DNA of 62,246 bases, taken from a virus. Numbering within the stretch: position 1 is the stretch's first letter; every line of letters begins with the position of its first letter. The notes beneath the pieces were generated by a model. The model was given only the letters and a program-made list of their open reading frames with translations. It made no database searches and was not told the DNA's origin. The stretch spans positions 1-62,246 of the IMG/VR virus record IMGVR_UViG_3300033142_001129; one strand, given 5' to 3'. Below are positions 8,401-47,902 of this stretch, piece by piece. Made by a program: the position numbers and the translations under genes.

Positions 8401-11400
8401 ACTTTTCGTGGCTTTTCGACCACTTTAAAAACTCCGCCTGAATTTCTTTCTGTTTCTCTGTGGCTGCGAGCGTGGCTTCTGCATTAAGGACTTTCGACAT
8501 TCCGCCTTCTGGATTCTGAACAGAATCATAAACCTTTGTTCTCTTTAGATTTAAAGCATCCTGAACGAGTACATGCCCTTTTACTCTCCCCGTTCCCCAG
8601 GTATTTACATTCTTTGCGTTATCGTGTCGGGATCTCGGCGAAACTTTCCATGCGGAAGTTTCTCTCGTTCGTGCCTGCTGAACTTCGGTATCAACCTCCA
8701 TGGTTGTTGATATGAATTGTTGGATAAGGTCGTTAGGTAGCCATGAGCTCCCCAGCTTGAAATAAATAAATTCTATGTCTAATTCTTCCGGCTGGACAGC
8801 TTTAAGCGCTTTAACGTTATGCTTATATTCTGGTTTTTCGCTCGCCTGCTGCTCAACAAGAATAAGCTTTTTCTTAACATTCCCGGAAAGATAGTTCTCG
8901 GGAGTCTCGATCATACCGTTTTCAGGGTTTAGATATCCAAGCTCCTGATCAATAACATCTTTATAAACAGCTTCTTTAGTCGATCCTGTAAGATCGGCAA
9001 TGAACTGAGTGTTTACTTTACCTTTATAAATTAAAGAAAGCGCTATCGCGTCTTTTACATTATCTGCTGTTTTAGGTTCTCTAAAAGGAAAAATGGTCCG
9101 CTTCGCGAATATGGCAGACTTTGTAAAAGAAACAATATTTACCTTGCGTTCCTGCCCCTTTTTGGCTCCGCTTTTAAATTTAGTGGTATGCTGCTTGACC
9201 GTTTCATCTTCCAGGGCATCAACCACAGGAAAGTCATTATCTATCTTTTGCAAGAAAGAGTTTGCAGGGGCGCCGACGTTTCCGTTCTTAGAAACGAAAG
9301 CATCGTAATCTTTGTTTAATTGTTTCCGTAATTTTGTGATTTCCGCGTCGGTTGCGTCCTCTTGCTGCATCCGGTCGATAATCTTTATAGTCGTGTCTTT
9401 TAATTTTAAATAATCCCTGGCCCTGCTTTCCCGGCCCTTATTATCGATTGCTTTAACCAGCTTACCTTTTGTGTTGTAAATTTTAGGCTCAACAAGGATA
9501 CCGTCCTCAACAACGCGAAACTTGCCGTCTTTTTCAAGCAGTATATTTTCTTTCGTGCCTATATCGGCATATTCCTTTTCGCCTTCTTCCACGATAGAGC
9601 CTTCACCGGCTATATCTTTTGGCAGGGTTTCTATGGCTTTTTTGATTTGCTCGGCAAGATCCCCTTTGTTTGGCAACAGGGTATACGTTTTTTCACCATA
9701 CATGGTCCCTTTTTTCGAGTGCTTCCCCATGACCATTTCAGGATGATCGACAAAATATTCATTTATAGGGACCGTATCTGATGCAGCACGACCGGACTTG
9801 ACTTCCTTTGTGATCCTGAAGTCTTTTCCCAATCCCTGCAATTCGTTGTCTTTTTTCCGAAAAATAAGAATATCGGTAACAACTTCGGTGCCAGCGTCCT
9901 TCTTAAACGCCGTTTCTGGAAGTCTTATTGCACCGATCAAGTCGGCTTTATTTGCAATATACTCTTTAACGTTACCATTTGTTGTTGAATCTAAGGTATA
10001 TCGTGAAGTAATCGCGATAACGAGGCCACCAGGTCGCACAGAATCAATCGAACGCGCAAAGAAGTAGTTGTGTATGCTCCAATCTGAGTAATCAGGATGC
10101 TTCTTGTCGTAGACCGGATATTTACCAAAAGGGAAGTTACTCACAACCAGGTCCGCGGAATTGTCGGGGATCCCCTTTGCATTTTCAAAGCCGGTTATTT
10201 GAATTCGAGCCTGCGGATATAGCTTTTCAAGTATTTTTCCTGTGATTGTATCTAATTCGACACCTACCAGGGCAGAATTATTGCGCATAGCTTCGGGCAT
10301 TAAACCAAAGAAGTGACCGACACCGGCAGCGGGCTCTAAAACAGTCCCGCCTTTAAAGCCGAAATGTTCGGCAATGTCCCAAATAGAATTGATAACCTTG
10401 CGTGATGTGTAATGAGCGTTTAGGGTGGACTCTGCGGCGCTGTCCCATTCTTCCTGAGTCAATAAGCCGTTAAGCCTGGGATGAAGGTGTCTTCCGTACT
10501 TGCTTTTCCATTCCTCGTATTTTTTAAGATCATCCCCATATCTACTGAAATAGTTTTCAGGCTTTTTGATATCGGAAGAATTCTTTAGGAAGTTGTCGTA
10601 TTTGCGGGTAAAAACCTTTTGAGCGAAAGCGCCCCAGCCAACATACTGAGCCAGGGCCTTCTTTTCTTCAACGGTAGGATTACGATTTTCGGATTCGAGC
10701 TGTTTAACAAGTCGAATTGCTTTTATATTGGTCTTGATTTTAGTTACGTCACCGCGCGGAAACATAAGGTCGCCCGCTTCGATAACGTGGTTTTGATCTT
10801 CTTTCTTTGTTAGGCTGTCATCGTCCCTAAGATTTGCAGTTCCAGCTCGTTCGCCAGGCTCCTGGGTGGATTCTGACCGCTTGCCGGGCCGTCCGACGGC
10901 GCCACTATCTTTGCGTACACCACTTCCTCGATCTGGTCTGGTTCCATCTTCCCCTGCAGGCGCAGTATCGATGTCAGTATCGACGACCTCTGCACTATCC
11001 GGAGCAATATCTGTTTGAGCTGGTCCCGGTCTTCCTGAAACAGCTTCCGGGTGTCCTGCGGGTGGTTTTCCAGTAGCCATTGCAGATGGCTTTCCCACTC
11101 CGGGTAGTTCTCCGGATTCTCTATCTCCAATTCCTCCGGGTTCAGGTTCTTCAATTCCTGTAGTGACAGTTCCGACGCCTTCAACACCTTCAACGATAGA
11201 TCCACCTGTGGCCTCCTTTCCCATTTCTTCTTTTATAAATTTCTCAATATACACCTTTCCCTTTAAGGAAAGAGTATCAATCATAATTTTAACAAATTCA
11301 GATCCACTTTTACCCGCTGCGATAGCTGCTTTCAAGGCTTTGTGTAAATGAGGCTTTATCTGTTCCCATTTATCCGGGTTGAATTCTGTAGAAAATTCAC

Positions 11401-13411
11401 CCTTTTGGCCAAGGATATCGCTAACAGCCTTCAGCTCGTCGGCAAGGACGGTAAGGTTGTCAACAACTTCTTTGCCCTTAATCTCTCTTTCTTGCCTTTT
11501 AAAGTCGGCAAGTAGTTCGGTGGGGGTTGAATCTTCTACAGGTTTGGTTATCTCTCGTATTCCGGGTGATACGGATTCTTGGTCTTCTTCGGTAGGTGAT
11601 TTCCGGGTTTGGTCCACCGGCTTGCGCTGAACAGTCTCTTGCTCATATCCTCGCTGAAGGTCAGATTCGGATCCCGGTTTAATAACCCGGACACGCCCTC
11701 GAATTTTCGGGAGTCTTTCTTCAATTTCTTGCTCAGTTTTTTTAGGTTTTCTTTCATAGCGTATTACCCCCTTAGCTTCAGTCTTAATATAATCCAATTT
11801 TTTGAATTTGTCAAACAAATTCTTGTCTAAAACCTCAGTTTTTCCTTTTTCATGTTTAAATACTTGAATAGAGTCCCGACCGTCCACATTATTATCAGAC
11901 ATTTCAAAGATAACGTTATGATTATCTTTGTATTCCTTAAACAACTGTCGAAACGTAGGAAGTGAATAATTATAGGCCTTTACAGAGGCACTCAATGGAA
12001 CTTTACGGCCAACAACTTCGCGACCTTCTGCCCGGGCTTCTTCTTCCTGGGCCATTTTACGCAATCTTACTCTAACCTGAGAAGTTTCCGCGTCAATGTC
12101 AGTAAAGCCAATGTGAGCTTCCCCACCTTGTTCAAGTACCTTTTCTATATATCCTTTTGCTTTTTCATAATTGCCTAAAAGCGAATCATAAGCTACATGG
12201 TGTCCCTTTTTTATGGCTCTATTTAAGATTACGCCTGAAATCTTTTTTGCTTCTTCGTGATATGCGACAGCTTCTTCGCCCTGGTCGTGGCCTAAATCAA
12301 CTTTTACCTGATCAGCATTAGGATCGACAAAAACTTTCAGGTCTATCCCCATATCAATAGAGCCGCTTGTTTTACCCGCACCAGGGAGCCCACCCGTTAA
12401 AACGATAGTTTGTGTTTCTCCAAGGTCTTTAGCTGTGGGCTTGCCCTTTAAGTGAAGATTAAACAGCCGTCTTTTCTCTTGCCGGGTAATTTTGACCGGT
12501 GCCAACTCGGTTGCAAGCTCTATTTCCTCGATAACAGCGTCAAGGATCTCGTTTAATTCGCCAAGTTTGGTCCGGCCAGTAACCTTTTCTATGGCTTTAA
12601 GGATAATATCTTTAAGCTGGCCCCATAGGGTTTGAGACTCATTTTTAACGCCTTTGGCTCCGATTGAATTCAACCAGTTAGCAAAGGTTTTATTGGTAAG
12701 ACCGTATGTTGCGAGCTCGTCAACTTTTGCTCTGCCGGTATCTATCTCTGTGAATATTTTTTTAACATATGTCGGGGCGGTATCAACGTGTGTTTTTAAT
12801 GTATCGTAAAATTCAACGAGGTCTTTATGGAGCGTTTCATAGGATCCGCTTTGTGTCTTGATAACGTTATTAATAAGAGCATGAATTGCCTCATGCGCGA
12901 GCGGCTGGTCAAATTTGTCGGCGGTTCTTTCTGCCTTTTCGAGTAGGCCCCTGTTAATAAATATTCTGTTCGTCCTGTTACTGTAAACTGCGATAGAAGT
13001 CGGCCTTGCCTTTATATTATTAACAACGCTGATCTTTACGTCGTATTTTTTAATGGCATTAAAAAGCGCTCCGTATTGTGTTGGAACTCCAACCTTGCCA
13101 AAAAAGGCTTCAACAAAATCTCCAACGGGAGATACAGTTTTAACCTCGTCCACCGTTTCATTGAAAGCTGTGAAAAAGTCGGCTTTCTTGACCGGCGCTA
13201 TCGGCTTGTCCGACATGTTCTTTCTGATAAACTCAATAATATCAACACGATCTTTTTGAGCCTCTGCCAGTTTTTCCCCGACAACCTTAAGCGCTGCCTT
13301 CCGATCTTCCATGCCTAATTCGACAAGATCATCGACCAGGCCGTTAATTTCGGTTCGTTCGTCCCTCGATATCTTAGCCAGTTTGAAACATTTATTAGAT
13401 ATCATCGTCAA
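2480..13411 (-). CDS. Giant polyvalent protein (DarB-like: peptidase, kinase, methylase, helicase)
   Basis: A 3643-residue polyvalent protein taking up about a sixth of the window. Modules in order: a zincin-like peptidase (HEAIH near residue 172), a zeta-toxin-like P-loop kinase (GLPGAGKTSG near 340), a low-complexity Pro/Gly/Thr linker (about 560-870), an N6-adenine DNA methylase (LEPAAGVGHFFG near 1022; SNFPFG near 1089, a variant of the NPPY-type motif), an SNF2/DEAH helicase (GVGTGKTGS near 1726, DEAHNYK near 1890, QRNGRIVRE near 2222), coiled linkers, and a C-terminal 1000 residues of the polyvalent-associated type with short hydrophobic stretches. Proteins of this kind (for example P1 DarB) are packaged and injected with DNA to block restriction. 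It ends the leftward virion block, which fits an internal virion protein. Start is TTG at 13411 or ATG at 13405, overlapping the preceding gene by 11-17 bases. Confidence 0.9.
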   Translation of the reverse strand: MTMISNKCFKLAKISRDERTEINGLVDDLVELGMEDRKAALKVVGEKLAEAQKDRVDIIEFIRKNMSDKPIAPVKKADFFTAFNETVDEVKTVSPVGDFVEAFFGKVGVPTQYGALFNAIKKYDVKISVVNNIKARPTSIAVYSNRTNRIFINRGLLEKAERTADKFDQPLAHEAIHALINNVIKTQSGSYETLHKDLVEFYDTLKTHVDTAPTYVKKIFTEIDTGRAKVDELATYGLTNKTFANWLNSIGAKGVKNESQTLWGQLKDIILKAIEKVTGRTKLGELNEILDAVIEEIELATELAPVKITRQEKRRLFNLHLKGKPTAKDLGETQTIVLTGGLPGAGKTSGSIDMGIDLKVFVDPNADQVKVDLGHDQGEEAVAYHEEAKKISGVILNRAIKKGHHVAYDSLLGNYEKAKGYIEKVLEQGGEAHIGFTDIDAETSQVRVRLRKMAQEEEARAEGREVVGRKVPLSASVKAYNYSLPTFRQLFKEYKDNHNVIFEMSDNNVDGRDSIQVFKHEKGKTEVLDKNLFDKFKKLDYIKTEAKGVIRYERKPKKTEQEIEERLPKIRGRVRVIKPGSESDLQRGYEQETVQRKPVDQTRKSPTEEDQESVSPGIREITKPVEDSTPTELLADFKRQEREIKGKEVVDNLTVLADELKAVSDILGQKGEFSTEFNPDKWEQIKPHLHKALKAAIAAGKSGSEFVKIMIDTLSLKGKVYIEKFIKEEMGKEATGGSIVEGVEGVGTVTTGIEEPEPGGIGDRESGELPGVGKPSAMATGKPPAGHPEAVSGRPGPAQTDIAPDSAEVVDTDIDTAPAGEDGTRPDRGSGVRKDSGAVGRPGKRSESTQEPGERAGTANLRDDDSLTKKEDQNHVIEAGDLMFPRGDVTKIKTNIKAIRLVKQLESENRNPTVEEKKALAQYVGWGAFAQKVFTRKYDNFLKNSSDIKKPENYFSRYGDDLKKYEEWKSKYGRHLHPRLNGLLTQEEWDSAAESTLNAHYTSRKVINSIWDIAEHFGFKGGTVLEPAAGVGHFFGLMPEAMRNNSALVGVELDTITGKILEKLYPQARIQITGFENAKGIPDNSADLVVSNFPFGKYPVYDKKHPDYSDWSIHNYFFARSIDSVRPGGLVIAITSRYTLDSTTNGNVKEYIANKADLIGAIRLPETAFKKDAGTEVVTDILIFRKKDNELQGLGKDFRITKEVKSGRAASDTVPINEYFVDHPEMVMGKHSKKGTMYGEKTYTLLPNKGDLAEQIKKAIETLPKDIAGEGSIVEEGEKEYADIGTKENILLEKDGKFRVVEDGILVEPKIYNTKGKLVKAIDNKGRESRARDYLKLKDTTIKIIDRMQQEDATDAEITKLRKQLNKDYDAFVSKNGNVGAPANSFLQKIDNDFPVVDALEDETVKQHTTKFKSGAKKGQERKVNIVSFTKSAIFAKRTIFPFREPKTADNVKDAIALSLIYKGKVNTQFIADLTGSTKEAVYKDVIDQELGYLNPENGMIETPENYLSGNVKKKLILVEQQASEKPEYKHNVKALKAVQPEELDIEFIYFKLGSSWLPNDLIQQFISTTMEVDTEVQQARTRETSAWKVSPRSRHDNAKNVNTWGTGRVKGHVLVQDALNLKRTKVYDSVQNPEGGMSKVLNAEATLAATEKQKEIQAEFLKWSKSHEKWGPDLAKIYNEEFNGYVLRTFDPPDVKYFPNASRERELRWLQKKAVARGLQESTLFSHGVGTGKTGSFVTLAMEMRRIGTARKPLIVVQNATIKQYAKSFHKLYPQARVLIPSDGQRKGKNRKKLLSQIATGDWDAVILPHSFFDGIADDAEREAAFVQEQLDEIEATVDEFEAAEGKGSLTVKQMKALKKRKQAHLEKLLNRRVDDALKFEQLGVDALLIDEAHNYKRSEFFTKMGQVKGIDQGSAQRSTSLLLKADYIRQKTGGKNIILATGTPISNTTAELWTMIRYIRPDLLEEYNATLFDDFAANFGDTTVALEETESGTFKSVERFNKYVNGPELLTMFHTASDVVLTQDAGLVLPKIKTGKPEMVVVERTNALSGFIEILRDTREHWEQLTGREKMRQRHVPLVLFGQARKAAVDLRLIDPQHYKDDPGSKLNTAIENIYQIYEDTAEDNSVQIAFLDIYQNSDKTFNAYHDIRDKLIAKGMKAKEIAIIGELKTDVQREAVFQRARDGKIRFIIGSTAKLGIGVNIQNKLIAAHHLDAPMRPMDIEQRNGRIVREKNENAEVQIFNYGVKNTLDSVMYDRLMKKQKFIDQMLNGDIDGRTFDEPLGEEQVSYAEMQAAFSGNPLLFTKNDLEIDLKNLRILKSSHERAVSSARRSVKSLKEIDIPNQKENLVRAEGVAKTIKSIFPTGKLETYTYKGEELTSKEFIKEFRKEWDNIKGKIEKSFKGISYSDYRARQKAGQDKVYFNTKVHGLDLKVTFEPLVWYNLNEVLKKPGTPITLNEDVLDDTMVELRHEGDLIIRRTTRGPGGLTTVINNSIEQRLAEPQKETDYIKELEIELAEHQTLADKKFGKGQEIADKEQQLSEIEDQLNDLSRVREDVTEEVATERQVDRDNMLKSIGLKETDIEEAETPVMETPVETPRPEPSQYYVNVRGEFETAPDNAKKVDVVPDDWTGEPIEAFISRAEDDKEWTVTEATTGQQLANGTIKKQAIDLARSKIDQAGPEKMKENIAYGMEKGGRSPWAADDLDSMIDEEDLDQDIKDLLNRHMPEAKKGLKKLKDPSHKKIHRESKGLFKYAQDRFGKGFVDKDMKWYDRTFNNPYWAGKKFWFMKDAVGVEIKAAETRSTELFNDYEGDLGELQDEYGKWSKAQKKELQDLIWKWDDRRMPKKAVPTDWNKPAEQGEDIEIDPEHYREVKAFLEKSRVNPAVIQGFITIRKKLDEKFVDIDRTMRIEDLDSSKIREYRANINKANNYFPHRRTGSGYIQIFNKEKEIVVFREHFSLTKDRILPINRKASARAEQWLKDAVAKGKLKGSVSDYRISDPGPLKELPDEVFFQIPIEGIQQVVSSAGKDLATSRVQYEADRLYNKEGKTRKEALDLARRRLTADMEDALSKAVADTFKARGWGKHGIHRKNIPGHEKEDIFGILFDYLSGYAGFKTKITRTKAHHEILVNVDAKKYPAGYKHLSKYVKDMLANQDKTDRAVDTLRGIFFVKYLGFVIKSGMVNLTQNVVMAAPMLGLHTKGAHRKLSKAMVDTRRALTSKNAWFGKEVDYKHITKNEQQALHEMVESGATMDLFLRELKGNMPGVGIGKHFKKVIDKSGIFMQVAEKFNRASTGLAAYRVGVKEKGMSHDDAVAFAKTVVYDSHFLYGKANMPTGMRGGDAQKIARAAYTFRSFSHNYLLAMRHLFFNQRGGKKAFARSLRNLFLMGGLTSLPFFKVFTDILFAAIGEDDEDALTMARKMVPDQWMKDLIVYGLPGVVGADFSGSLSIEVPKNVYDIIGVPYAAYEDSINMYKSLKSGNYYRAAAETPFTPLSVRNAMRGLELYTIGHRTRSGRDINAVGKAGPRKITTKEFVQKSFVGLQPTSVSKGFASYRATKKMQTSISEKRRSFADRFVNALRREDYKATQAIMQEIAKWNEKAAKVNRPHRIIDIEGMIESRMKPGFNNIPENQRWKALEIQKQWE

Positions 13412-17648: not shown

Positions 17649-18053
17649 TTATAATTCCTCAACCACAATCTGTTTAATGTAATTATACCTATCCCTGATT
17701 GTGGTAAATCTCCATTTGCGCTTTTTAGGGTTTCCAACTGCTACCGGCGCCAATTGCGTTACCGGTTCCGGAGTTTTATTTAGATCTTCCTGTATGGCCT
17801 GTACGATCTGTGCAACCGTAGCGGTTGATTCAGACATTTTATCTGCTGAAACTGCGAGGCTTTGGGCCATATCTATTACAACGTTTGCAGACTTCAACAT
17901 AACGCCCGATGTCAGGTCCGGCTTTTTCTCCTGGACTATAACCGGCTTTTTCGGTTTTGTTTTTATGCTGCTCTTATTCCTTGTTACTTCAAGGCCTTTC
18001 TTTTCAACCTTCTTCTTAAGAGCCGCTTGCGACATTCGTTTCATTAAATACAA
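17649..18053 (-). CDS. Small Lys-rich virion-block protein
   Basis: A 134-residue protein with a strongly basic N-terminal third (KKKVEKKGLEV, KTKPKKPV), a central helical region with heptad-like spacing (MAQSLAVSADKMSESTATVAQIVQAI) and a C-terminal RWRFTTIRDRYNYIKQIVVEEL-type segment. Its start overlaps the end of the 1107-residue gene by ten bases. No family recognised; it probably acts as a small adaptor or DNA-contacting component in the virion. Confidence 0.6.
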   Translation of the reverse strand: MYLMKRMSQAALKKKVEKKGLEVTRNKSSIKTKPKKPVIVQEKKPDLTSGVMLKSANVVIDMAQSLAVSADKMSESTATVAQIVQAIQEDLNKTPEPVTQLAPVAVGNPKKRKWRFTTIRDRYNYIKQIVVEEL

Positions 18054-21000
18054 TCCCTTAAGATTTTGAGTGAAAGTATCCTCTCGTCGATATCTTCAAG
18101 AGCTTGCCCGGCATCCTCTTTCACTTTAACAACTTCGCCGGTTTCGGAGATCTGAACTTCTGATTCATACTTTAAGCCCTTGCCATGCTCGGGCGTGATT
18201 TCTATTTGTTCCCGTTTTAGGAGCGCCTTGGCTTCCTGTGGGGCCTTTTCTGCGACCTTTTCCGTTTTAGGTGTCTCGGGTAGGGCCTTTCTTTGTAAAT
18301 CAGGATAATCTTTAAGGACTGATTCTGGAACGGGTTTGCCCTGGTTAATAGCCGTATGCACAGCGTTTTTGTGAAAGGTATTCTCAGTATAGGACGTTGC
18401 CCCCTTCCGTGGCTTTCCGTGTAGCGATTCATATTCAGAAAGTGTCATTTCCCACGTTTCTTTGCCCTTCTCAGAGGCCGGAGGTTGGACGATCTTTTCT
18501 GCCTTAGTTTTCTCCAATTTATCTGTTGGAGATCTCCAACTTTCTGTTGGATATCCAACAGGTTTTTTCTGTTTTCCCCAGGAAAGCCAGTTCTTAAACT
18601 TCTCAACTGACATTTCAGTAATATCACCAAAGCCCTGCCAGCCTTCTTCATAATTGGCAAGATAACCCTCTTTGGCAGCTTCTTCACTTGAAAAGCCGGT
18701 CATTACCTTGTGCTCGTCAAACTTGCCTGTTCCTGGTTCAACCTGATCAACAATATAAACATTAGGACTTTCAGTATCGGGACCGACAAAGGTATCAATC
18801 TGATCACCGTCTTTGCCTTCGGTACGGTTGAAATATCCGTAATGATGTTTCATTTCGATTGACCATTTTTTCCCGTCAGGAGCAACGCCTTTGCGCTGAG
18901 ATCCTTTCGGGTTTTCAATGGCAATCTCCATGCCCTGAATATGGATTGCCCCTTTTAAATAATTTCCTGCTTGCTTTTGTTTTTCAGATGGGTTAATATC
19001 AACCTTAATTTCTTGATCACCAATTTTAGAGGAAGCTATATGTCTACCATCAGGAAGTATGTCTGTTTTAATTGTGGAATCACTTTTAGTAGAAATTGGA
19101 GTTCCAGGAAAGGTCAAGTCCGCTTTTTCTGTTGCGTCTCTTGCAGAAATTCTTTTGATTGTGGAAGAAAGAGAATCAACGAAACTGATTACAGGCTTAG
19201 GTATAGATACGTCACTCGGAATGGAAAGCCTATGGGTGAGCATCGTTTTGTTATGGAGCAAACCATCGGGCGTCCACTGGCTTCCGACGAGGCCGTTCAT
19301 CACATCAACGGGGATAGTCTTGATAATCGCCCTGAGAACTTGCGGATCGTTGAACGAGGATCTCACAGAAGAAAGTATCATCTGCTGTCTGTCCCGCTTG
19401 AGCGAATTAAAACTCTCAGACTGCAGGGTTTTAGTATTAGAGCGATTGCCAAAAAGATTGGAGTTAGCAAGAACACTATCACCAACAGACTCGTCGACCT
19501 TGGATTTCCTCTCTGTAGGCCGTAATTCAATAGTCGTACCCGCACCCGCAAGAGCTACATCAGTCTTTTTGGGTGCGGGCACTTTCGCTACGCGGCGATC
19601 TGCTTCAGAGATTACAGGCGGTTGCCCTTCGTCTCTTTTCTTTTGTTGTTCCTGGATATCAGTTTTAACGGTAGCCCAATATTTCTCATTTGCTTGCCGT
19701 TCTGCTTCCTCTGCAACTTCGACCTGTTGTAATGTCGTTGGTCTTGCTCCATACTTTTTCCGGCCCTTGGCAATCTCGCCTTCTTTTCGCTGCTGTTCAA
19801 TATTAGCTTCAACGCCCTTCCAGTATTTATCTTCCTCGCGCTTTTCTGTAATGAATTCACCGGCTTGTGTTATTTGTTCCTCGATACCGCCCAGCTTTTC
19901 AACCCGCTGATCTTCCTCTTGCTCCGCTTCAAACTCTTTGATTTTCTCTTGATTACGCCTTCTTGTCTGAAAGTCTGTAGTCGTTGGTTCTTCAACCGTC
20001 GGCTTTTCGGCCTTCGTGGGTTTTGTGGTTGAAAGGACCTCGTTTATTGCGTCGTAAAGAATATCATCTTTCGGTAGGTCTTTAAGCTCGCCTTCTAATT
20101 GTTCGCGAGTAATTTGCCCACCGTCAAGAGCCTCTTTTAATTGCTCTGTTTTCCTGGTCAGGTCGGTTTCTTTCTCGTCTTTATTGGCTTTAAGTTCTCT
20201 TTTATAATCGGCAATAACAAAGGGAGATCCTGCAACCTGGACGCCACCGGTAAGCATAGCACCACCAACGGCTCCCACCTTCATAGCCTTCTTTGCTTTT
20301 TTATGAATCGCCGGAAATTCGTTTAAAACTATCTTGGCTATTTCTGCGCCGGTCTTCTCATGGTTAGCTGCATAGAGATTGGCTATTTCATCAGGATATT
20401 GCTGTAAATATTCCTCTAAGCCTTCACCTGTGATATTGGCACCCAAAACACCTATGAACTGTCTGAGGCGTTTTCCAAAACCCATTTTGGCCCCGGTCTT
20501 GGAAAAGATCGTCTTCAACATTTTGATTTGAAAGATAGATCCGGCCTGTTCCAAAGGTGTATTTATTGCAGAGGTAAGCAGGCCAATTTCCCTTGCAAGC
20601 TCTTTATCAATACCAGCATCAACCAGCTCTTTGCGTTTCTGCCCGTATATCTGATTAAACATCGATATCGTGCCAGCGGGGATATTAAGGGCAGTTAAGG
20701 CCATACCAGGACCGAATCTTGACACACCGCCTGCAGCGGTTTCAATTATTCCTGAGCTACCAGGTAGAGGTTCCGGCAATGTTTCTACCCATTTTTCATA
20801 AGTCTCTATGCTCTCGTCCCTGATTTTTACAGAATAATCTCTTTTTAGGTCCTCGCGTTCCCTGGAAGTTAATGGAGATCCCTTGTCTTTTTCTGCTTGC
20901 CGCAGCTCTTTACCAAAAAGAGCTTTTTCGGTATCTGATAAAACGTTAAATGCAATTTCCGGCTTTCTTAATTCATACGCCTGGCTCGGTCCTTCTTTTT

Positions 21001-21367
21001 TCTTGTATGGCTCAGGTTCGCTTTTTGCATAGCTTTTCATGTGTTCCGCTTCACCTATCGCACCCTGGGCCATATCTCCTAACCCCTGGGCCGCATTGCG
21101 AAACATCTGTGTGCCAACTCTTTTAAATGTGAGTTCTGGGACTAATCCTGTAGCTGGGTCAACTTCGGCATAATCGGACTCTCCTTGTTCTTCGCCTTCG
21201 AACAAAGATTCGCCAAATTCCATGAAGGCACCGGCCATTTGTTTGCCAAGGCCCACAGCCTTTTGAGGCTCTTTCGGCTCAGGTTCTTCCCCTTCCCAGG
21301 TTATCTTTGTTGGATCTATTTCAGGGGGTTCGTTGTACCACGTTATTTTCTTTGGATTAATTGACAT
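18044..21367 (-). CDS. Polyvalent internal virion protein with pyrophosphatase-like domain and antisense HNH insertion
   Basis: A 1107-residue protein. Residues about 1-380 have helical and hydrophobic stretches typical of injected virion proteins (VGAVGGAMLTGGVQVAG); residues about 390-600 are charged coiled coil. Residues about 795-950 match the inorganic-pyrophosphatase-like domain of phage polyvalent proteins (KQAGNYLKG, IENPKGS, MKHHYGYF, KDGDQIDTFVGP, VDQVEPGTGKFDEHK). Residues about 614-776 are different: this stretch is the exact complement of an HNH endonuclease gene on the other strand (19040-19525) yet has no stop codon, so the protein apparently carries about 160 residues of 'antisense' sequence just before the pyrophosphatase domain. 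It sits between a 378-residue and a 134-residue virion gene. Function in DNA delivery or nucleotide handling is inferred. Confidence 0.8.
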   Translation of the reverse strand: MSINPKKITWYNEPPEIDPTKITWEGEEPEPKEPQKAVGLGKQMAGAFMEFGESLFEGEEQGESDYAEVDPATGLVPELTFKRVGTQMFRNAAQGLGDMAQGAIGEAEHMKSYAKSEPEPYKKKEGPSQAYELRKPEIAFNVLSDTEKALFGKELRQAEKDKGSPLTSREREDLKRDYSVKIRDESIETYEKWVETLPEPLPGSSGIIETAAGGVSRFGPGMALTALNIPAGTISMFNQIYGQKRKELVDAGIDKELAREIGLLTSAINTPLEQAGSIFQIKMLKTIFSKTGAKMGFGKRLRQFIGVLGANITGEGLEEYLQQYPDEIANLYAANHEKTGAEIAKIVLNEFPAIHKKAKKAMKVGAVGGAMLTGGVQVAGSPFVIADYKRELKANKDEKETDLTRKTEQLKEALDGGQITREQLEGELKDLPKDDILYDAINEVLSTTKPTKAEKPTVEEPTTTDFQTRRRNQEKIKEFEAEQEEDQRVEKLGGIEEQITQAGEFITEKREEDKYWKGVEANIEQQRKEGEIAKGRKKYGARPTTLQQVEVAEEAERQANEKYWATVKTDIQEQQKKRDEGQPPVISEADRRVAKVPAPKKTDVALAGAGTTIELRPTERKSKVDESVGDSVLANSNLFGNRSNTKTLQSESFNSLKRDRQQMILSSVRSSFNDPQVLRAIIKTIPVDVMNGLVGSQWTPDGLLHNKTMLTHRLSIPSDVSIPKPVISFVDSLSSTIKRISARDATEKADLTFPGTPISTKSDSTIKTDILPDGRHIASSKIGDQEIKVDINPSEKQKQAGNYLKGAIHIQGMEIAIENPKGSQRKGVAPDGKKWSIEMKHHYGYFNRTEGKDGDQIDTFVGPDTESPNVYIVDQVEPGTGKFDEHKVMTGFSSEEAAKEGYLANYEEGWQGFGDITEMSVEKFKNWLSWGKQKKPVGYPTESWRSPTDKLEKTKAEKIVQPPASEKGKETWEMTLSEYESLHGKPRKGATSYTENTFHKNAVHTAINQGKPVPESVLKDYPDLQRKALPETPKTEKVAEKAPQEAKALLKREQIEITPEHGKGLKYESEVQISETGEVVKVKEDAGQALEDIDERILSLKILRDCI
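19040..19525 (+). CDS. HNH homing-type endonuclease nested antisense in a virion gene
   Basis: A 161-residue HNH_3-type endonuclease. N-terminal zinc ribbon (C9, C12, C32, C35), HNH core with EHRFVME, VHHINGDSLDNRPENL (His88, Asn96, Asn100) and a C-terminal helix-turn-helix (about 125-155: FSIRAIAKKIGVSKNTI) for DNA binding. A ribosome binding site (AGAGGAAG) ends six bases before the ATG at 19040. The gene lies on the plus strand wholly inside the leftward gene 18044-21367, and its codons are in exact register with those of the host gene. In that register each TTA, CTA or TCA codon would put a stop in the host gene; none of its 24 Leu and Ser codons is one of these. It is the only rightward gene in a 52-kb leftward block. 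Confidence 0.85.
   Translation: MSTIRKYVCFNCGITFSRNWSSRKGQVRFFCCVSCRNSFDCGRKRINETDYRLRYRYVTRNGKPMGEHRFVMEQTIGRPLASDEAVHHINGDSLDNRPENLRIVERGSHRRKYHLLSVPLERIKTLRLQGFSIRAIAKKIGVSKNTITNRLVDLGFPLCRP
19539..19579. repeat. 9-bp inverted repeat beside the nested HNH gene
   Basis: Perfect arms CCCGCACCC (19539-19547) and GGGTGCGGG (19571-19579) separated by 23 bases, starting 13 bases after the HNH stop. In RNA from either strand this would fold into a strong hairpin. It is not followed by a T run, so it is a poor intrinsic terminator. It may mark the edge of the inserted segment or stabilise the HNH transcript. In the host protein it encodes PAPKK and AGAG. Confidence 0.6.
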
Positions 21368-35533: not shown

Positions 35534-36619
35534 CTATGCGTTCGGATCTGCGATATAAGTATCAACTGCTATTACACCGAAATCCAAGCTGTTAAACCTG
35601 GCCTTGGAACAACCGAACATAGCCCCTGCGGTAATGACAAGAGCGTTACCACGGTCGTCTGTTTCCTCATTCCAGGAGTAACGGCCAAAGGCTCCGCCTC
35701 CGCCCCATGCGATTACAGCCGCCTGTGCGCCTAAGAAAAGCGCTCTTGCAGCATCAACGTCGCTACCTGAACCATAATCATCAAAACGAATTACATTTCG
35801 GTGTTTATGCAGGATAACGTCGGCGTATTCGCCCAAAGCGTTATGATACAGGTGATTTCCGTCACCGCGCAGGCCTGCGTTCTTCTGAATATCAACCCAA
35901 TCATTCTCAGAGGTTGACGTTCTTAGTGAGTAAGCCTGGAAGGTGTGCATAAGGAAGACAAACTTATTCTCTCCCTGTACGCGGAAAGGCTGGATCATTG
36001 GATCGAGAGTTTCAGCTTTTGCGACCAGCTTTTCAACAATTCCCAAAGCCAGGCCATCAGCCGAATCAAGATCGCCCTTACCGGTAGCAGCGCCGCCATA
36101 AATCTGATGTGCTGCGTCCGGGGCTCTTAAACTGTTGTTTGCTCGCCCTGCCCATGAAAGCCCAACATGGAAGGAAGTATCAACACCACGAGCCCCAGCC
36201 AGGTACATCATAAGCTGTTGGTCGTAATCTTCTGCCCACCATGTAGAAAGAGCGTTACGGCCTTCAAGCCGCATATTGTAGGGCACTCTCTGCTCTGACA
36301 TTTTGCCCTTTGATTTCGTGCCTTTACGTCTTTGGCTGATGAAAACAAAATCATTAAAGAATTCCAGCGCTTCCTCTGCGCTCGTTCCTTCAATTTGATC
36401 ATCATCCTCAGCACCGTCTCCGCCGAGTTTCATACGCAGGGCAAAGATGATTTTCTCACCAGCCTGCTTATTGAGCTCAGTTTTGACTTTAATAAGGGCA
36501 TCGTCGCCCGTACCCATAAACTTGCGGAAATATTGCTTTACTTCCGCTTCTTTGGCAAGGCTGGTTGACCAGCGCTGAACTGCCAAAGGATCATTTAATG
36601 CAAATTCTGTTGCAGCCAT
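35534..36619 (-). CDS. Major capsid protein (N4-gp56 family)
   Basis: A 361-residue protein that matches the N4-gp56 major capsid family: N-terminal NDPLAVQRWSTSLAKEAEVKQYFRKFMG, then VKTELNKQAGEKIIFALRMKL, EEALEFFNDFVFISQRRKG, VPYNMRLEGRNALSTWWAEDYDQQL and the C-terminal region (FGRYSWNEETDDRGNALVI). This subunit builds the HK97-fold icosahedral shell. Normal length. It follows the scaffold gene by 23 bases with a strong ribosome binding site (AAAGGAGAAATATT) and is followed by a hairpin, consistent with high expression. Family call firm. Confidence 0.9.
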   Translation of the reverse strand: MAATEFALNDPLAVQRWSTSLAKEAEVKQYFRKFMGTGDDALIKVKTELNKQAGEKIIFALRMKLGGDGAEDDDQIEGTSAEEALEFFNDFVFISQRRKGTKSKGKMSEQRVPYNMRLEGRNALSTWWAEDYDQQLMMYLAGARGVDTSFHVGLSWAGRANNSLRAPDAAHQIYGGAATGKGDLDSADGLALGIVEKLVAKAETLDPMIQPFRVQGENKFVFLMHTFQAYSLRTSTSENDWVDIQKNAGLRGDGNHLYHNALGEYADVILHKHRNVIRFDDYGSGSDVDAARALFLGAQAAVIAWGGGGAFGRYSWNEETDDRGNALVITAGAMFGCSKARFNSLDFGVIAVDTYIADPNA

Positions 36620-39838: not shown

Positions 39839-39933
39839 TAAATTCCTCCCCTAAATACAAGCTGCGCGATACCAAACAGTATCAATGCAAACAAAAAGCC
39901 CACTGCAAAGTCTATCAATTTGGTCCAGCTCAT
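39838..39933 (-). CDS. 31-residue membrane peptide
   Basis: Peptide MSWTKLIDFAVGFLFALILFGIAQLVFRGGI with one transmembrane span. The ATG lies inside the end of the portal gene and the TAA overlaps the next ATG. Such peptides after portal genes are common in podovirus genomes. Function unknown. Confidence 0.5.
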   Translation of the reverse strand: MSWTKLIDFAVGFLFALILFGIAQLVFRGGI

Positions 39934-41984
39934 TGAATAGCCCCCTGGGGTTTAGATATGTGCTCTAATGCTTTCTGTGTCATTTCAAAGCCTTTCGCGA
40001 TTGCATCCACCCTGAATTGATCACCTTTGAGCTTCGCTTCTTCCATATCTATTTTGGCATCTATTAATATTTTCTGTATTTTGGCCTTAAGCTCAATATT
40101 TTCAAGTTGTTTTTGGTTCAGTTCCAGGTGGATACCAGCCTTCTGAAGTTGCTCGGCTTCCTGTTGTTTCTTTTGAGCCGCCTCCATTTGTTTCTGATTT
40201 CTATCCTTAATTTCTTCTGGCGTCAAGTCTTCATCCTCATACTTCTCACCTAACAATGGTTTAATCTTAGCAAGTAGCATATCTTTGTTTGGAATATTAG
40301 ACATTTCGAACGCCATGGACATCAATTGAGGGATGATTTCCGGGGGAGATTTCTTGACCCACTCAATAATCAAGTTCATGTTTTGTTCACGGACAGTATC
40401 GCTCTGTGGTTGATCTGATATGACCGTATCATACTTGCCCTGAGTGATATCATTCCGAATTGTAATCTGTTTATTCTCGCCAATAACCTTTTGATTAAGC
40501 TGAACAAATCTTTCAGCGCCACTTAATCTATCGGTTATCCTCAACACCTTTGGAGCAGACCAAAATCCTTGAACATTGGCCACTACCTGCTCACCAATCA
40601 TGTGTAAGGATCTGCGCTTATTATCAAATAAAGTAGCTGTTGTGGTTGCGCCCTGGGTAATTTTCTTTTCAAGGGCTATACCGGAAAGTGCAGGCGTTTT
40701 AAATCCAGAGCTTTCACTGTTGGCCCCGGACATTTCCTGGATCTCTCGTTCATCCTGCTGTAAGATTGCGGTCTGTGAGGGTGCAAGTTCAGCTTGTTCG
40801 TGAATCTTTATTTTATCTATCATTCCTTTTTTAACAACAACAAAGCCGTCTAACTTGTTTGCTTCTTCATAAACTCGCTGCAGGCCGTCTTTATCCTTTG
40901 CAACACCTTCCTCTACCGTTACTCTCCTGGATTTTAGGAAAGCAAGCGCCATGGACCGTCTTTTATTAACTTCTTCATCCTGGCCCATTATTTGTTTTGG
41001 CACTCCGTATGGAGTATTAAACCTGTCAATATATCCAAGGAAGGGAATAAACGGATATTCATCATGCGGGAACGGTGAGCGCTGTTGCATTAATATTAAA
41101 TCATCAATGAAGGTACAGACATACATTTTCTTAACTGTTGCCATAACGACCTGTTGCGCCTGTTGAACGATTTGGAATTGTTCGTTCAGATCTAATTCAT
41201 CCAACTCGATCACGGTACCGTCCAAGAAGGATGCAAACGTCCGCGTTTCGTCCATAGGATACCACATTTCTACAGGCCTTACCCTTTTCCTCTCTGCCTC
41301 AACCCAACCGGATCCGGCCATTTGTCGCCTGTTTTCTTCGATATAGCTTGCTTCATCATCAAAAAAAGAGCTGTATGTGTCTGACTGTGCGCCTGATAGC
41401 TCGTCAAACTTGGCTTGAAGCGCTTGTGACTTCTCTTTAAACATCGCCTTAACAGAGGAAAGGTCAACCCAACGCTGTTGAAAGACATATTTTGTGGAAT
41501 CAGGGCTCCACCATGGCGGAGAAAAAGGATCTCCCCACATTTCTTTCCAATCACGGTACTTAAGGGTAATCTTTTCCTTGCGAGGATCACGGTTAAGAGT
41601 TGGAGACAGACAGCCAAAGCCAGGTATAATCTGATCTTTAAAGGCCTGGGATATAAGATATGTGCCGCTGCATTGATCCATTATAAACTTAATGCTCTCG
41701 GTCATTATCTGAGATACTTCGGAATCTTTGATCGTCCTGGCCTTCGCCGTGATATCATATTTATTGATAGCTTCATATCCCAACAATAGATTGACCGCAG
41801 GAAATGTTCTATTAATGGTGACAGGATCGATCCCAGCATCAATGGCAGCGTCATAATCCTCTTGCGTCCATTGAGCCTTACCACCATCATACATTTCTGA
41901 ACAACGCCATGCTTGCGCTCTCCAATCCCTTGCCGCCCATTGAGCTTCTTGGACCCATGTATTTAATGTTGCTATTTCAATCAT
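39930..41984 (-). CDS. Portal protein (P22-like)
   Basis: A 684-residue portal subunit, which forms the twelve-fold ring through which DNA is packaged and ejected. Recognisable features are the N-terminal helix (WAARDWRAQAWRCSEMYDG), AIDAGIDPVTINRTFPAVNLLLGYEA, the wing region (RDWKEMWGDPFSPPWWSPDSTKY), VNKRRSMALAFLKSRRVTVEEG, and the helical barrel at the C-terminus with long Gln/Glu-rich helices (RNQKQMEAAQKKQQEAEQLQKAGI). Length fits P22/podovirus portals. It starts one base inside the terminase stop, as is usual. Confidence 0.9.
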   Translation of the reverse strand: MIEIATLNTWVQEAQWAARDWRAQAWRCSEMYDGGKAQWTQEDYDAAIDAGIDPVTINRTFPAVNLLLGYEAINKYDITAKARTIKDSEVSQIMTESIKFIMDQCSGTYLISQAFKDQIIPGFGCLSPTLNRDPRKEKITLKYRDWKEMWGDPFSPPWWSPDSTKYVFQQRWVDLSSVKAMFKEKSQALQAKFDELSGAQSDTYSSFFDDEASYIEENRRQMAGSGWVEAERKRVRPVEMWYPMDETRTFASFLDGTVIELDELDLNEQFQIVQQAQQVVMATVKKMYVCTFIDDLILMQQRSPFPHDEYPFIPFLGYIDRFNTPYGVPKQIMGQDEEVNKRRSMALAFLKSRRVTVEEGVAKDKDGLQRVYEEANKLDGFVVVKKGMIDKIKIHEQAELAPSQTAILQQDEREIQEMSGANSESSGFKTPALSGIALEKKITQGATTTATLFDNKRRSLHMIGEQVVANVQGFWSAPKVLRITDRLSGAERFVQLNQKVIGENKQITIRNDITQGKYDTVISDQPQSDTVREQNMNLIIEWVKKSPPEIIPQLMSMAFEMSNIPNKDMLLAKIKPLLGEKYEDEDLTPEEIKDRNQKQMEAAQKKQQEAEQLQKAGIHLELNQKQLENIELKAKIQKILIDAKIDMEEAKLKGDQFRVDAIAKGFEMTQKALEHISKPQGAIQ

Positions 41985-45285: not shown

Positions 45286-45678
45286 TTACATAAAATTAAT
45301 TTCTCTACAGCTTATATCCAAGGCCCGGTTATAATCTCCGAAACGATGAACCATGAAATGATAAAAATCGGCCTGTGAGATCCTGAGACTTTTTAACCAC
45401 TGCCACCTGGTACAACTGTAAATGATTATTATCATATTTCCGTGAAATTTTGTATCTGTGATTACTTTAGGGACGCCCGCGTCCACTTCAAAGTCATGGA
45501 TCCGTCAGGCCCGCTTAATGCTTAATCCGCCCCATACTGTGTCAGGGACAATCCAGTCCCCTACTTTTCCAGGACCTCAGCCCCCTGCACAACGATCTAT
45601 TTCCTCTTTAGTTGCTCGCCAAAAAGCTTCAATCGCGTGTAAGGGGACCTCGGGACCTTCGTACTTGATACCTAACAT
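45286..45678 (-). CDS. Phospholipase-A2-like protein with two in-frame TGA (putative selenoprotein)
   Basis: A 131-codon gene with in-frame TGA at codons 34 and 58, otherwise open. Start: the ATG at 45678 overlaps the stop of the membrane-protein gene (TAATG). Read-through gives DRCAGG-x-GPGKVGDWIVPDTVWG and IKRA-x-RIHDFEV. The glycine loop followed by xxxHD resembles the calcium loop and catalytic His-Asp of phospholipase A2-like proteins, where the two TGA positions are cysteines that form a conserved disulfide; related phage proteins I remember have Cys there. Ordinary TGT codons encode three other Cys in the gene, so TGA is not simply Cys. Each TGA is followed by a hairpin with loop 22 and 26 bases downstream and a G in the first two loop bases, as bacterial SECIS elements require. 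Sits in the lysis region, where membrane-lipid hydrolysis would make sense. Alternatives: pseudogene or sequencing error. Confidence 0.7.
45471..45484 (-). promoter_or_regulatory. Candidate bacterial SECIS hairpin after TGA codon 58
   Basis: On the coding strand GGACG, loop CGGG, CGTCC: a 5-bp perfect stem that begins 20 bases after the TGA (45505-45507), so the loop starts at base 26, with G as its second base. It fits the same spacing and loop rules as the first hairpin. Confidence 0.45.
45544..45561 (-). promoter_or_regulatory. Candidate bacterial SECIS hairpin after TGA codon 34
   Basis: On the coding strand GGGGAC, loop TGGATT, GTCCCT: a 5-bp perfect stem plus one G-U pair. It begins 15 bases after the TGA (45577-45579), so the loop starts at base 22. 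A loop of 3-14 bases with a G in its first two positions and 16-37 bases from the UGA is the accepted bSECIS form. Confidence 0.5.
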
Positions 45679-45863
45679 TATTTCTTAGCGGCCTTTTCGA
45701 CCTTGTGACCGATTCCAAGAGCTGTAAGAGCGCTAAAACAAACCATAGCGCCCTGATACATCTTGTCTGGATTAACGGGCTCACCGACAAATCCTGCAAT
45801 TATCATTGCAACGCCGGTACAAAGAACACCTCCTGAACCAAGTTTTGTTTTCCATCCTGTCAT
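45678..45863 (-). CDS. Small membrane protein, holin-like
   Basis: A 61-residue protein with two hydrophobic segments (GVLCTGVAMIIAGFVG and MVCFSALTALGIGHKV) separated by a short polar loop, and a basic C-terminus. This size and topology fit a small holin. Strong ribosome binding site (CAGGAGAAAAATAAA). It is read directly before the phospholipase-like gene, in the same region as amidase and lipoprotein genes. Holin call is inferred. Confidence 0.6.
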   Translation of the reverse strand: MTGWKTKLGSGGVLCTGVAMIIAGFVGEPVNPDKMYQGAMVCFSALTALGIGHKVEKAAKK

Positions 45864-46030: not shown

Positions 46031-46480
46031 CTATCTCCGAATAAATTTAGTCTGTCTCGGTGTTGCCATAGCTATACCGTTACGGAAAGAAAAGACGAAC
46101 TTACCCAATAATACCGAATTATAATTGTCAAGAAAGCCAAGCGTTCCGTCAGTTTTGAGAAAGACACCTACCAGCTTTTGAACTTCTGCCATGAGTACCA
46201 TGTTTTGCGTAGTCTGCCCGTAATTTTTAAAGATATACGTTGCAGCGTACTCTAATGCAGCTTGACTTACGGTTTCATTGTCTGCTTTCAGATAAGCATC
46301 GCAAATCTCAACCACTTCGTCGATCTTATCCAGGTTGTTGGAGCCCACCATCACCCCGGCAATGATTCCACCATGGTCTATGACGGCTTGCCCTGATTCT
46401 GATTCCAGAAATGCGTTCATGCCCGTACAGCCTGTAAATAAAAAAACTATTGCAATTATTATAAATAGAGATTTTCTCAT
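46031..46480 (-). CDS. Lipoprotein of the lysis region
   Basis: A 149-residue protein with a lipoprotein signal (MRKSLFIIIAIVFLFTGC, Cys18 in the lipobox FTGC). The mature part is helical (VIDHGGIIAGVMVGSNNLDKIDEVVEICDAYLKADNETVSQAALEYAATY). A lipoprotein next to a holin-like and a membrane-anchored gene fits an outer spanin, although it is longer than most. The ATG overlaps the stop of the 35-residue basic gene. Confidence 0.65.
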   Translation of the reverse strand: MRKSLFIIIAIVFLFTGCTGMNAFLESESGQAVIDHGGIIAGVMVGSNNLDKIDEVVEICDAYLKADNETVSQAALEYAATYIFKNYGQTTQNMVLMAEVQKLVGVFLKTDGTLGFLDNYNSVLLGKFVFSFRNGIAMATPRQTKFIRR

Positions 46481-46584
46481 TTTCTGCCTTTGCCTCCTTT
46501 TTGTGGGGTTTTACAGCCGCCCCTGCCTTTATTGGCCCTCTTGCCCTTACCCGATCCGTCTCTCTTGGGTACTCCTTTTGCCAT
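46477..46584 (-). CDS. 35-residue basic glycine-rich protein
   Basis: Sequence MAKGVPKRDGSGKGKRANKGRGGC and then KTPQKGGKGRK: a very basic glycine-rich peptide with one Cys. I recall near-identical small proteins in many phages and prophages, so it is probably real. Four-base overlap with the lipoprotein gene and a good ribosome binding site (AGGAGGTTGTG). Function unknown. Confidence 0.65.
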   Translation of the reverse strand: MAKGVPKRDGSGKGKRANKGRGGCKTPQKGGKGRK

Positions 46585-46601: not shown

Positions 46602-47459
46602 TTATATGCCTCCAAAGATCAGCCTTTCATTAATAGCTTTTCCGTTGAATTGAGGAATTTGCGTAAATCCACCCGCTTCAACATCGAGTAAAACATCTGA
46701 ATAAATATCGTTCCATGATTTTGCCGGGTGAATATGTTTAATGAGGTTGTGTGTAAATGCGCCCTGCCAGGTGTCGTTTATATAAGCGTCTGCTGATGTT
46801 TGATTATCCCTACAGCCGGATAGCAAAACATGGTTTAGTTCTATCGCTCTGGTTCCTATTTTCCTGTTTTGTAGTTCTCTCCCGGCGCTCCGCATCTGTA
46901 TGTCCCTGGGGGGTGCTAAAAATCTTGGCTGTTGCTTTGTTGGATTGTTGATGTCCCGGGTCATGCTTCCGGAATGGCAAGCATCAATTATGCAAGTAAG
47001 GGATGAATTTTGAGGAATTTCCTTGAATATTTCGGATAAATAATCATCGGTAAGTGGTAAATCCCAATTTATATCGTGGGGACATAAGATTTCGTCTAAA
47101 CCGTCGTTTAGCTCGTCTCCGTCTCTATCCCTTACCTGTGAGCCGTGTCCCGAGTATTGAAACACAAGCTCACTGTTCTCATGGTCCACCAACCATATCA
47201 GCCGGTCTATAATATTATTATGCGTTGCTCTTTCGTCTGTAACTACTCGAATATTATCCGCATCGAAATTGAACTGCTCAATTAAGACGGTTCTTAGGTG
47301 TTCCACATCGTTACAGCACCCGCGTAAATCACAATTAAGATCAGGTCTGTACTTATTAATCCCAACAAGCAGGGCGTATTTATATCTGTCGCCCACCTCT
47401 ACGTTTGGTTGACTCACGCTGGGCGGTTTATTAAATAAATTGCTTAAAAATTTACACAT
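46602..47459 (-). CDS. Metacaspase (peptidase C14, caspase-like)
   Basis: A 285-residue metacaspase. The p20-like fold is visible: YALLVGINKY, LRGCCNDVEHL, the catalytic His in YSGHGSQ (His105) followed by DRDGDELNDGLDEILCPHD, and the catalytic Cys in CIIDACHSG (Cys161). The C-terminal half has LLSGCRDNQTSADAYINDTWQGAFTHNL as in type I metacaspases. These proteases cut after Arg or Lys and are calcium dependent in most cases. The gene starts at the stop of the endolysin gene (one-base overlap), so it is in the lysis operon. Roles could be lysis timing, processing of a virion protein or defeat of a host caspase-like defence; none is proven. Confidence 0.9.
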   Translation of the reverse strand: MCKFLSNLFNKPPSVSQPNVEVGDRYKYALLVGINKYRPDLNCDLRGCCNDVEHLRTVLIEQFNFDADNIRVVTDERATHNNIIDRLIWLVDHENSELVFQYSGHGSQVRDRDGDELNDGLDEILCPHDINWDLPLTDDYLSEIFKEIPQNSSLTCIIDACHSGSMTRDINNPTKQQPRFLAPPRDIQMRSAGRELQNRKIGTRAIELNHVLLSGCRDNQTSADAYINDTWQGAFTHNLIKHIHPAKSWNDIYSDVLLDVEAGGFTQIPQFNGKAINERLIFGGI

Positions 47460-47902
47460 TATTTTCCCCTAAAGGCTTCAATGTTAAATCGTTTACCAGG
47501 GCAGGTCTTCCAGGGTGCCAGCTCTGTGTGTCCAAATACCTTTGCCGCTGGTATTTCGAATGTCTGCCTTAACGCCATAACCAGCTTTAAACCGCAGGCA
47601 AGCATTGCAACTGGCAGTGGATCATTGTCATAATTACCAATAAAACAAATACCCAGGCTGCGGCTATTCATATTATTCTGTTTACAGTGGGCTCCGTTTT
47701 CGTTCCACAATCTGCCGATAATGATCTCGTAACGGTCCCTAACCAATTCAATCATAAAGTGGTATCCGATATCTCGCATGGGTTTGTTACGATATGGACT
47801 ATCTGGATGAAGGCCGGTGTGCCATTTTCTGATGGCAGAGGTATTGTAGGATTTTCCGTCGGTGCTTAGGCTATGATGAAGGGTTATAAATTCTGGTGTC
47901 AT
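47459..47902 (-). CDS. N-acetylmuramoyl-L-alanine amidase (endolysin)
   Basis: A 147-residue Amidase_2-type endolysin that cuts the bond between muramic acid and the peptide stem. Zinc and active-site residues: HHS near residue 9, GYHFMIE, GNYDNDPL, GHTELAPWKTCPGKRF (His near residue 124, Cys at 133). No signal peptide, so a holin is needed for release. It lies directly upstream of the metacaspase gene with overlapping stop and start. Confidence 0.9.
   Translation of the reverse strand: MTPEFITLHHSLSTDGKSYNTSAIRKWHTGLHPDSPYRNKPMRDIGYHFMIELVRDRYEIIIGRLWNENGAHCKQNNMNSRSLGICFIGNYDNDPLPVAMLACGLKLVMALRQTFEIPAAKVFGHTELAPWKTCPGKRFNIEAFRGK

Follow-up and report, generated by a model that had tools for sequence, protein, structure and literature searches.

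A phage-encoded metacaspase adjoining the endolysin gene, in a candidate mobile lysis cassette

The metacaspase gene and the adjoining endolysin

The window analysed here is the complete IMG/VR virus record IMGVR_UViG_3300033142_001129, a stretch of 62,246 bases. It encodes a complete and intact metacaspase, in a phage, directly adjoining the endolysin gene. The phage backbone is recognised from a P22-like portal (E 1.3e-104), a small terminase, a 511-amino-acid (aa) large-terminase-like protein and a Phage_capsid_3 capsid protein (Pfam, PHROGs). The central features are as follows.

46602..47459, minus strand (ATG at 47459): metacaspase (family C14), 285 aa, assigned by Pfam PF00656, PDB search, residue conservation and Foldseek
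Metacaspase residues 1-28: N-terminal extension
47459..47902, minus strand: N-acetylmuramoyl-L-alanine amidase, endolysin (Pfam PF01510 Amidase_2, E 2.8e-16; PHROGs phrog_1493 endolysin, E 4.5e-17)

A preliminary description, made from the sequence, had noted a one-base overlap between the amidase stop and the start of the metacaspase, which is correct (TAATG). Its identification of a metacaspase from a His105/Cys161 dyad and an acidic loop also stands. The dyad residues lie in QYSGHGSQ (His105) and DACHSGS (Cys161), and the acidic loop reads RDRDGDELNDGLDE. Pfam Peptidase_C14 covers residues 27-275 with an E-value of 1.9e-30 and 106.7 bits (cut-off 21.4), and the PDB sequence search returns Metacaspase-1 with an E-value of 9.5e-29, or 2.2e-55 using a 13-row profile. 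The AlphaFold2 model built from a 29-row alignment has a mean pLDDT of 79.8, and its best PDB folds by Foldseek are metacaspases. These Pfam, PDB and Foldseek matches place the identity far beyond chance. The protein is one continuous domain without a long p20-p10 linker, and the type II metacaspase AtMC4 aligns to it in two stretches with an insert. We file it as a type I-like metacaspase or orthocaspase. The 'caspase' defence model of PADLOC matches it as well (E 5.5e-21); PHROGs holds no family for it, and NCBIfam and PADLOC yield no more specific name.

The lysis cassette in related phages

The neighbourhood of an endolysin is shared by related phages, which are referred to here by their locus numbers (L). 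In L001, an endolysin of phrog_465 (E 1.3e-15) lies directly upstream of the metacaspase at a distance of about 40 bases. In L102, with a 61% identical metacaspase, the same position is taken by a T4-type lysozyme (phrog_7, E 7.5e-17; Pfam Phage_lysozyme, E 4.4e-12), and the endolysin and metacaspase genes overlap as they do in the window. The endolysins of the window, L001 and L102 show no mutual BLASTP match at a useful E-value, and the large terminases of the three do not match each other. The same cassette with unlike terminases indicates that the cassette moves between phage backbones. The earlier placement of the metacaspase in a phage lysis operon is borne out, as relatives keep a lysis cassette with non-homologous endolysins. 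We conclude that the metacaspase belongs to a mobile phage lysis cassette, which we file as a variant of the known phage lysis cassettes. The L009 endolysin is not to be read as broken, since the stops that seemed to interrupt its match fall outside the gene.

Downstream of the metacaspase, the window contains four further features, the last of which has relatives in all four of the phages named with it.

46477..46584, minus strand: 35-aa Lys/Arg/Gly-rich peptide, MAKGVPKRDGSG..., between metacaspase and lipoprotein (sequence and pattern scan)
46031..46480, minus strand: predicted lipoprotein (lipobox LFTGC), 149 aa, a conserved companion of the metacaspase that is also present in L001, L006, L007 and L102 (alignment of relatives)
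45678..45863, minus strand: 61-aa small membrane protein with a basic C-terminal tail (BLASTP), holin-like by size and position only
45286..45678, minus strand: gene of 130 aa containing in-frame TGA at 45577-45579 and at 45505-45507; its product is a candidate selenoprotein from a phage family resembling phospholipase A2
Relatives of the UGA-containing gene: L001 2402-2803; L006 5287-5688; L007 5305-5697; L102 2989-3474

Lipoprotein and UGA-containing gene accompany the metacaspase in five phages (the window, L001, L006, L007 and L102). In the window, L001 and L102, the lipoprotein, a small membrane protein and the gene with in-frame TGA all lie downstream of the metacaspase, the members of the lipoprotein family sharing 38-89% identity with that of the window. 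L006 and L007 have the same lipoprotein, metacaspase and TGA gene, but with the lipoprotein first. A small membrane protein is part of four of the five cassettes, and none was called in L006. Relatives of the 61-aa protein occur in L001 and, adjoining an amidase, in L098, while small membrane proteins of another family hold the same place in L007 and L102. Neither the lipoprotein nor the small membrane protein matches a Pfam or PHROGs family, and they are candidate spanin and holin only. Within the stretches read around the amidase relatives L097-L099, no metacaspase was found.

The 35-aa peptide follows the pattern MAKG(V/T)PKRDGSGKG..., and its copy in L001 lies at about 5950-6060, after the terminase. 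The peptide, which had been considered as an inhibitor or substrate, is therefore not counted as a fixed part of the cassette.

Three other genes are recorded for completeness. In L115, a protein with an MscS-type mechanosensitive channel beta-domain (4000-4350; PF00924, E 3.7e-5) is encoded two genes upstream of the metacaspase. On the minus strand of the window, a 3643-aa open reading frame (ORF) with SNF2-related, helicase C and Zeta_toxin domains, perhaps encoding a large protein injected with the DNA, spans 2480-13411. An ORF of 1107 aa at 18044-21367, on the same strand, contains a domain of the inorganic pyrophosphatase type (PF18823, E 7.6e-57).

Distribution, phylogeny and selection

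Metacaspases had been described as rare in phages, and the searches agree. At E 1e-5, a homologue is found in one of 50,697 named phage records, the 485-kb LR745208 (36% identity), and relaxing the limit to E 10 adds two weak matches. Among 2.9 million IMG/VR contigs, two pattern-limited scans found 12 and 16 loci, jointly 17 records beside the window; being pattern-limited, these counts are lower bounds. L102 and L103 are identical across the 6,438 bases compared, and L011 carries the same metacaspase gene as LR745208. Matches were found in 90 of 72,556 plasmid records, and bacterial genomes provided 103 candidate stretches encoding relatives, of which 80 were kept. The nearest non-phage relatives of the metacaspase are bacterial caspase-family proteins.

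Ten phage proteins (those of the window, L001, L006, L007, L102, L115, L008, L009, L010 and L016) form a phage-only clade with a support of 98/93 in the careful tree (46 rows), and the same ten-member clade is recovered with 96 in the quick tree (60 rows). The trees leave out L029, L030 and L058, which have broken or partial ORFs, together with 34 further bacterial loci of the 80 kept, and the careful tree additionally omits 14 long or distant rows. The seven other viral proteins are placed elsewhere in the tree, so that phages probably acquired such genes more than once.

Within the clade, the metacaspases of the window and L001 are 90% identical as proteins and 86% identical as nucleotide sequences. 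The changes distribute over the three codon positions as 24/17/80, with dN 0.062 against dS 0.690 (dN/dS about 0.09). This difference indicates purifying selection on the metacaspase.

Outside these comparisons, two metacaspases of Planctomycetota (L020, 1184-3775; L031, 6034 onwards) reach about 870 aa and include a large additional C-terminal part, and in L013 a Peptidase_C92 protein (YiiX-like permuted papain amidase, 6885-7475) is encoded immediately downstream of a metacaspase of another clade.

Active site, S1 pocket and putative calcium site

Loss of the catalytic residues in relatives had been named in the preliminary description as a finding that would refute it. In the alignment, His105 and Cys161 are kept in all 17 viral and all 43 bacterial rows, and the refutation thus fails. 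The S1 pocket residues Cys48, Asp51, Ser103 and Asp159 are likewise present in 17 of 17 viral rows and correspond to Cys92, Asp95, Ser156 and Asp211, given as S1 residues of TbMCA2 in PMC4357240. Cleavage by the phage metacaspase would be expected after Arg or Lys.

The putative Ca2+ ligands Asp122, Asp138 and Asp139 are found in all ten members of the phage clade. They correspond to three of the four aspartates of the TbMCA2 Ca2+ site (Asp173, 189, 190 and 220, as listed in the same paper), a correspondence drawn from residue spacing and from an alignment with yeast-type metacaspases rather than from a residue-by-residue alignment with TbMCA2. Together, all nine residues (Cys48, Asp51, Ser103, His105, Asp122, Asp138, Asp139, Asp159 and Cys161) occur in 10/10 clade members, and across the 17 viral rows all of them except Asp139 are invariant.

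N-terminal extension and the L016 intein

In all ten clade members the first core strand is preceded by 26-91 residues, compared to 3-5 residues in six of the seven other viral rows and 3-6 in 15 of the 17 bacterial rows displayed; the exceptions hinge on which start codon is chosen. Signal-peptide-like starts occur within a larger set of 46 bacterial rows, in cyanobacterial and some other proteins. L008 and L009 contain a clear N-terminal transmembrane stretch (19-residue hydropathy 3.14 and 3.07) that is followed by Lys/Arg. By the positive-inside rule, positive residues mark the cytoplasmic side, which argues for a cytoplasmic catalytic domain in these two proteins. The N-termini of L115 and L010 are moderately hydrophobic (1.38 and 1.13). 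The proteins of the window, L001, L006, L007 and L102 share short MCK starts, a weak indication of possible membrane binding. An N-terminal transmembrane helix is also reported for some bacterial metacaspases (46 sequences in PMC3501461), so that the trait as such is not new.

The L016 homologue (4450-6594), a single ORF of 714 aa, contains an HNH nuclease and an intein splicing domain recognised by Pfam (E 7.1e-21). The intein sits between the catalytic His-Gly and the next Ser. Inteins typically occupy conserved sites of important proteins, and its position at the catalytic site supports the protease being functional in phages. As a separate observation, several neighbours of the metacaspase in L010, L012 and L016 are unrelated-looking proteins with a common N-terminal motif like RLAxELLKLAKxL, as if it were a targeting or packaging tag.

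The UGA-containing neighbour gene

In four of the five phages (the window, L006, L007 and L102), both in-frame codons of the 130-aa gene are TGA; L001 has TGC (Cys) at the first place and TGA at the second. Genome-wide recoding of TGA is ruled out, since TGA serves as an ordinary stop for 10 of the 58 non-overlapping window ORFs of at least 100 aa, including portal and small terminase. Possible homologues are found in Vibrio phage 1.097.O (annotated 'phospholipase A2 domain protein') and Thiohalocapsa phage MD03; in weak BLAST alignments read by eye (E 0.7), both have Cys at or adjoining the two TGA places. A hairpin is predicted behind the first TGA place in all five sequences. Covariation in the stem-loops is low, with changes on both sides in 0 of 13 pairs for the first TGA and 2 of 7 for the second. 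The fold predicted from the five sequences is of low confidence (mean pLDDT 49.7). Searching 46 genomes from the class of a Syntrophus genome with profiles of the UGA-encoded protein and the lipoprotein gave no match, a result that says little since the set included no positive control. Selenocysteine is the simplest reading of these codons, and the gene looks like a candidate phage selenoprotein, which may possibly hold a diselenide in place of a disulfide. No report of a phage selenoprotein was found in the literature searched.

Discussion

We propose that an active, Arg/Lys-specific metacaspase, held at the membrane and switched by Ca2+, is a working part of this mobile phage lysis cassette and helps lysis. 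We put the probability of this reading at roughly one half. The overlapping or closely spaced endolysin and metacaspase genes suggest that both proteins are probably produced late and together. With the N-terminal segment as its tether, the catalytic domain would most likely reside on the cytoplasmic face of the inner membrane; a clear signal for such a tether comes from the hydropathy of L008 and L009 only. Low cytosolic Ca2+ would keep the protease quiet, and Ca2+ entering at the first membrane lesions would switch it on. The active protease could then cut basic, cytosol-facing segments of the small membrane protein, of host envelope proteins, or of both, and this cleavage would lead to abrupt and complete lysis. 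A protease that is probably membrane-tethered and Ca2+-gated may in this way help to trigger or to finish lysis. In a more far-reaching version, which we regard as speculative and rather improbable, these steps would form a caspase-type lysis circuit. The tethered metacaspase, activated by Ca2+ through the first lesions, would cut the small membrane protein of the phage and perhaps host envelope proteins. Membrane failure would thereby amplify itself, and endolysin, lipoprotein and the selenocysteine phospholipase-like protein would finish wall and membranes.

Several observations weigh against the proposed lysis role. Activity and function are inferred from sequence and gene context. The N-terminal segment of the window protein is short, weakly hydrophobic and modelled with low confidence. 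The position of the fourth TbMCA2 Ca2+ ligand is Arg or Lys in the phage clade; with three aspartates kept, the sequences make Ca2+ dependence plausible. The endolysin of L009 lies about 6 kb from the metacaspase, and the three endolysin families tried were not found in L006, L007, L008, L010, L016 or L115, records that may be fragments. Finally, L131, whose portal is a 49% relative of that of the window, lacks a metacaspase in the 8 kb that precede this portal, which indicates that such a phage can do without the gene. The records L128-L130 (portal 55% relatives of the window) offer no information here, as their sequence upstream of the portal is shorter than 4 kb.

The best-surviving alternative is counter-defence, in which the protease would cut or dislodge part of a host defence system (caspase-like, gasdermin or other) and so prevent premature cell death. 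We consider it possible, though not probable. It fits the bacterial caspase-family proteins as nearest non-phage relatives, the PADLOC match reported above and the patchy, mobile occurrence of the gene between phages, as counter-defence genes are often patchy and mobile. However, position and overlap tie the metacaspase to lysis genes and not to an early region, and its companions resemble envelope proteins. A somewhat less likely alternative is late degradation of host proteins, such as envelope and stress proteins, by a protease that has no control over lysis timing. Such degradation is within reach of a cytosolic Arg/Lys protease, and no endolysin is evident adjoining the homologues of L011, L012, L015 and L120, whose neighbours were not all scanned. 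It leaves unexplained why a stable block with lysis genes is found in several phages.

The remaining explanations are all improbable. A passenger gene (moron) that hitchhikes beside lysis genes would agree with the mobility between phages and with L131, but purifying selection, the invariant active site and the same companions in five phages speak against it. Slightly less credible still is a suicide-pore trigger, in which the phage protease cuts a gasdermin of the host and the host pore serves phage release. It requires a host with a matching gasdermin, and no gasdermin was found; amidase, lipoprotein and 61-aa membrane protein gave no PADLOC match, gasdermin models not having been searched separately. 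Last, phage proteases often act on capsids and the fold is that of a protease, but a virion maturation protease is very unlikely given that the gene lies outside the head module (portal 39930-41984, Phage_capsid_3 capsid 35534-36619) and is found with unlike terminases.

Overall, the genomic evidence favours a lysis role, makes virion processing unlikely and weighs neither for nor against an anti-defence role. Regarding the preliminary description, its lysis-operon placement and its statement on rarity are supported, and the three functions it offered (virion or lysis protein processing, host death, anti-defence) are still candidates.

Comparison with known systems

Phage lysis is described in terms of holins, endolysins and spanins. 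The cassette resembles holin-endolysin-spanin cassettes in combining endolysin, small membrane protein and lipoprotein in one block. It differs by the extra death-type protease and the UGA-containing phospholipase-like gene, and its holin and spanin are candidates. The protease itself shares with type I metacaspases and bacterial orthocaspases (4f6o, 7qp0, 4afr, 3bij) the full p20-p10 fold, the dyad, the acidic S1 pocket and, putatively, three of four Ca2+-site aspartates. In contrast to these, it is phage-encoded and located in a lysis cassette, with the fourth ligand exchanged for Arg/Lys, and unlike the nearest bacterial relatives of about 270 aa the phage clade carries the 26-91-aa N-terminal extension. 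A viral metacaspase has reportedly been found in Medusavirus, and the phage protein is virus-borne like this and other giant-virus metacaspases; to our knowledge, those belong to eukaryotic viruses and have no lysis cassette.

We know of no description of a death-type protease as a standing part of a phage lysis block, and open-licence PMC papers yielded no report of a phage-encoded metacaspase in such a block. Several otherwise different phages keep the protease there, which points to a death-type protease aiding host lysis in some phages. The cassette is compact and could be tested in laboratory strains.

The closest parallel in logic is found in bacterial caspase-gasdermin pairs, in which a protease activates a pore, as the proposed mechanism would have it here. 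According to PMC9612521, bacterial gasdermin operons contain caspase-like proteases and, sometimes, endolysin-like genes. Both systems place a protease beside membrane-active and, in some of these operons, endolysin-like genes. They differ in that the whole set is phage-borne here and that no gasdermin was recognised among the cassette proteins scanned. If the metacaspase has a lysis role, phage lysis and caspase-gasdermin death would be connected; their likeness has so far been remarked on from the side of defence (PMC9612521). The caspase-type lysis circuit, if true, would be a viral counterpart of caspase-gasdermin death.
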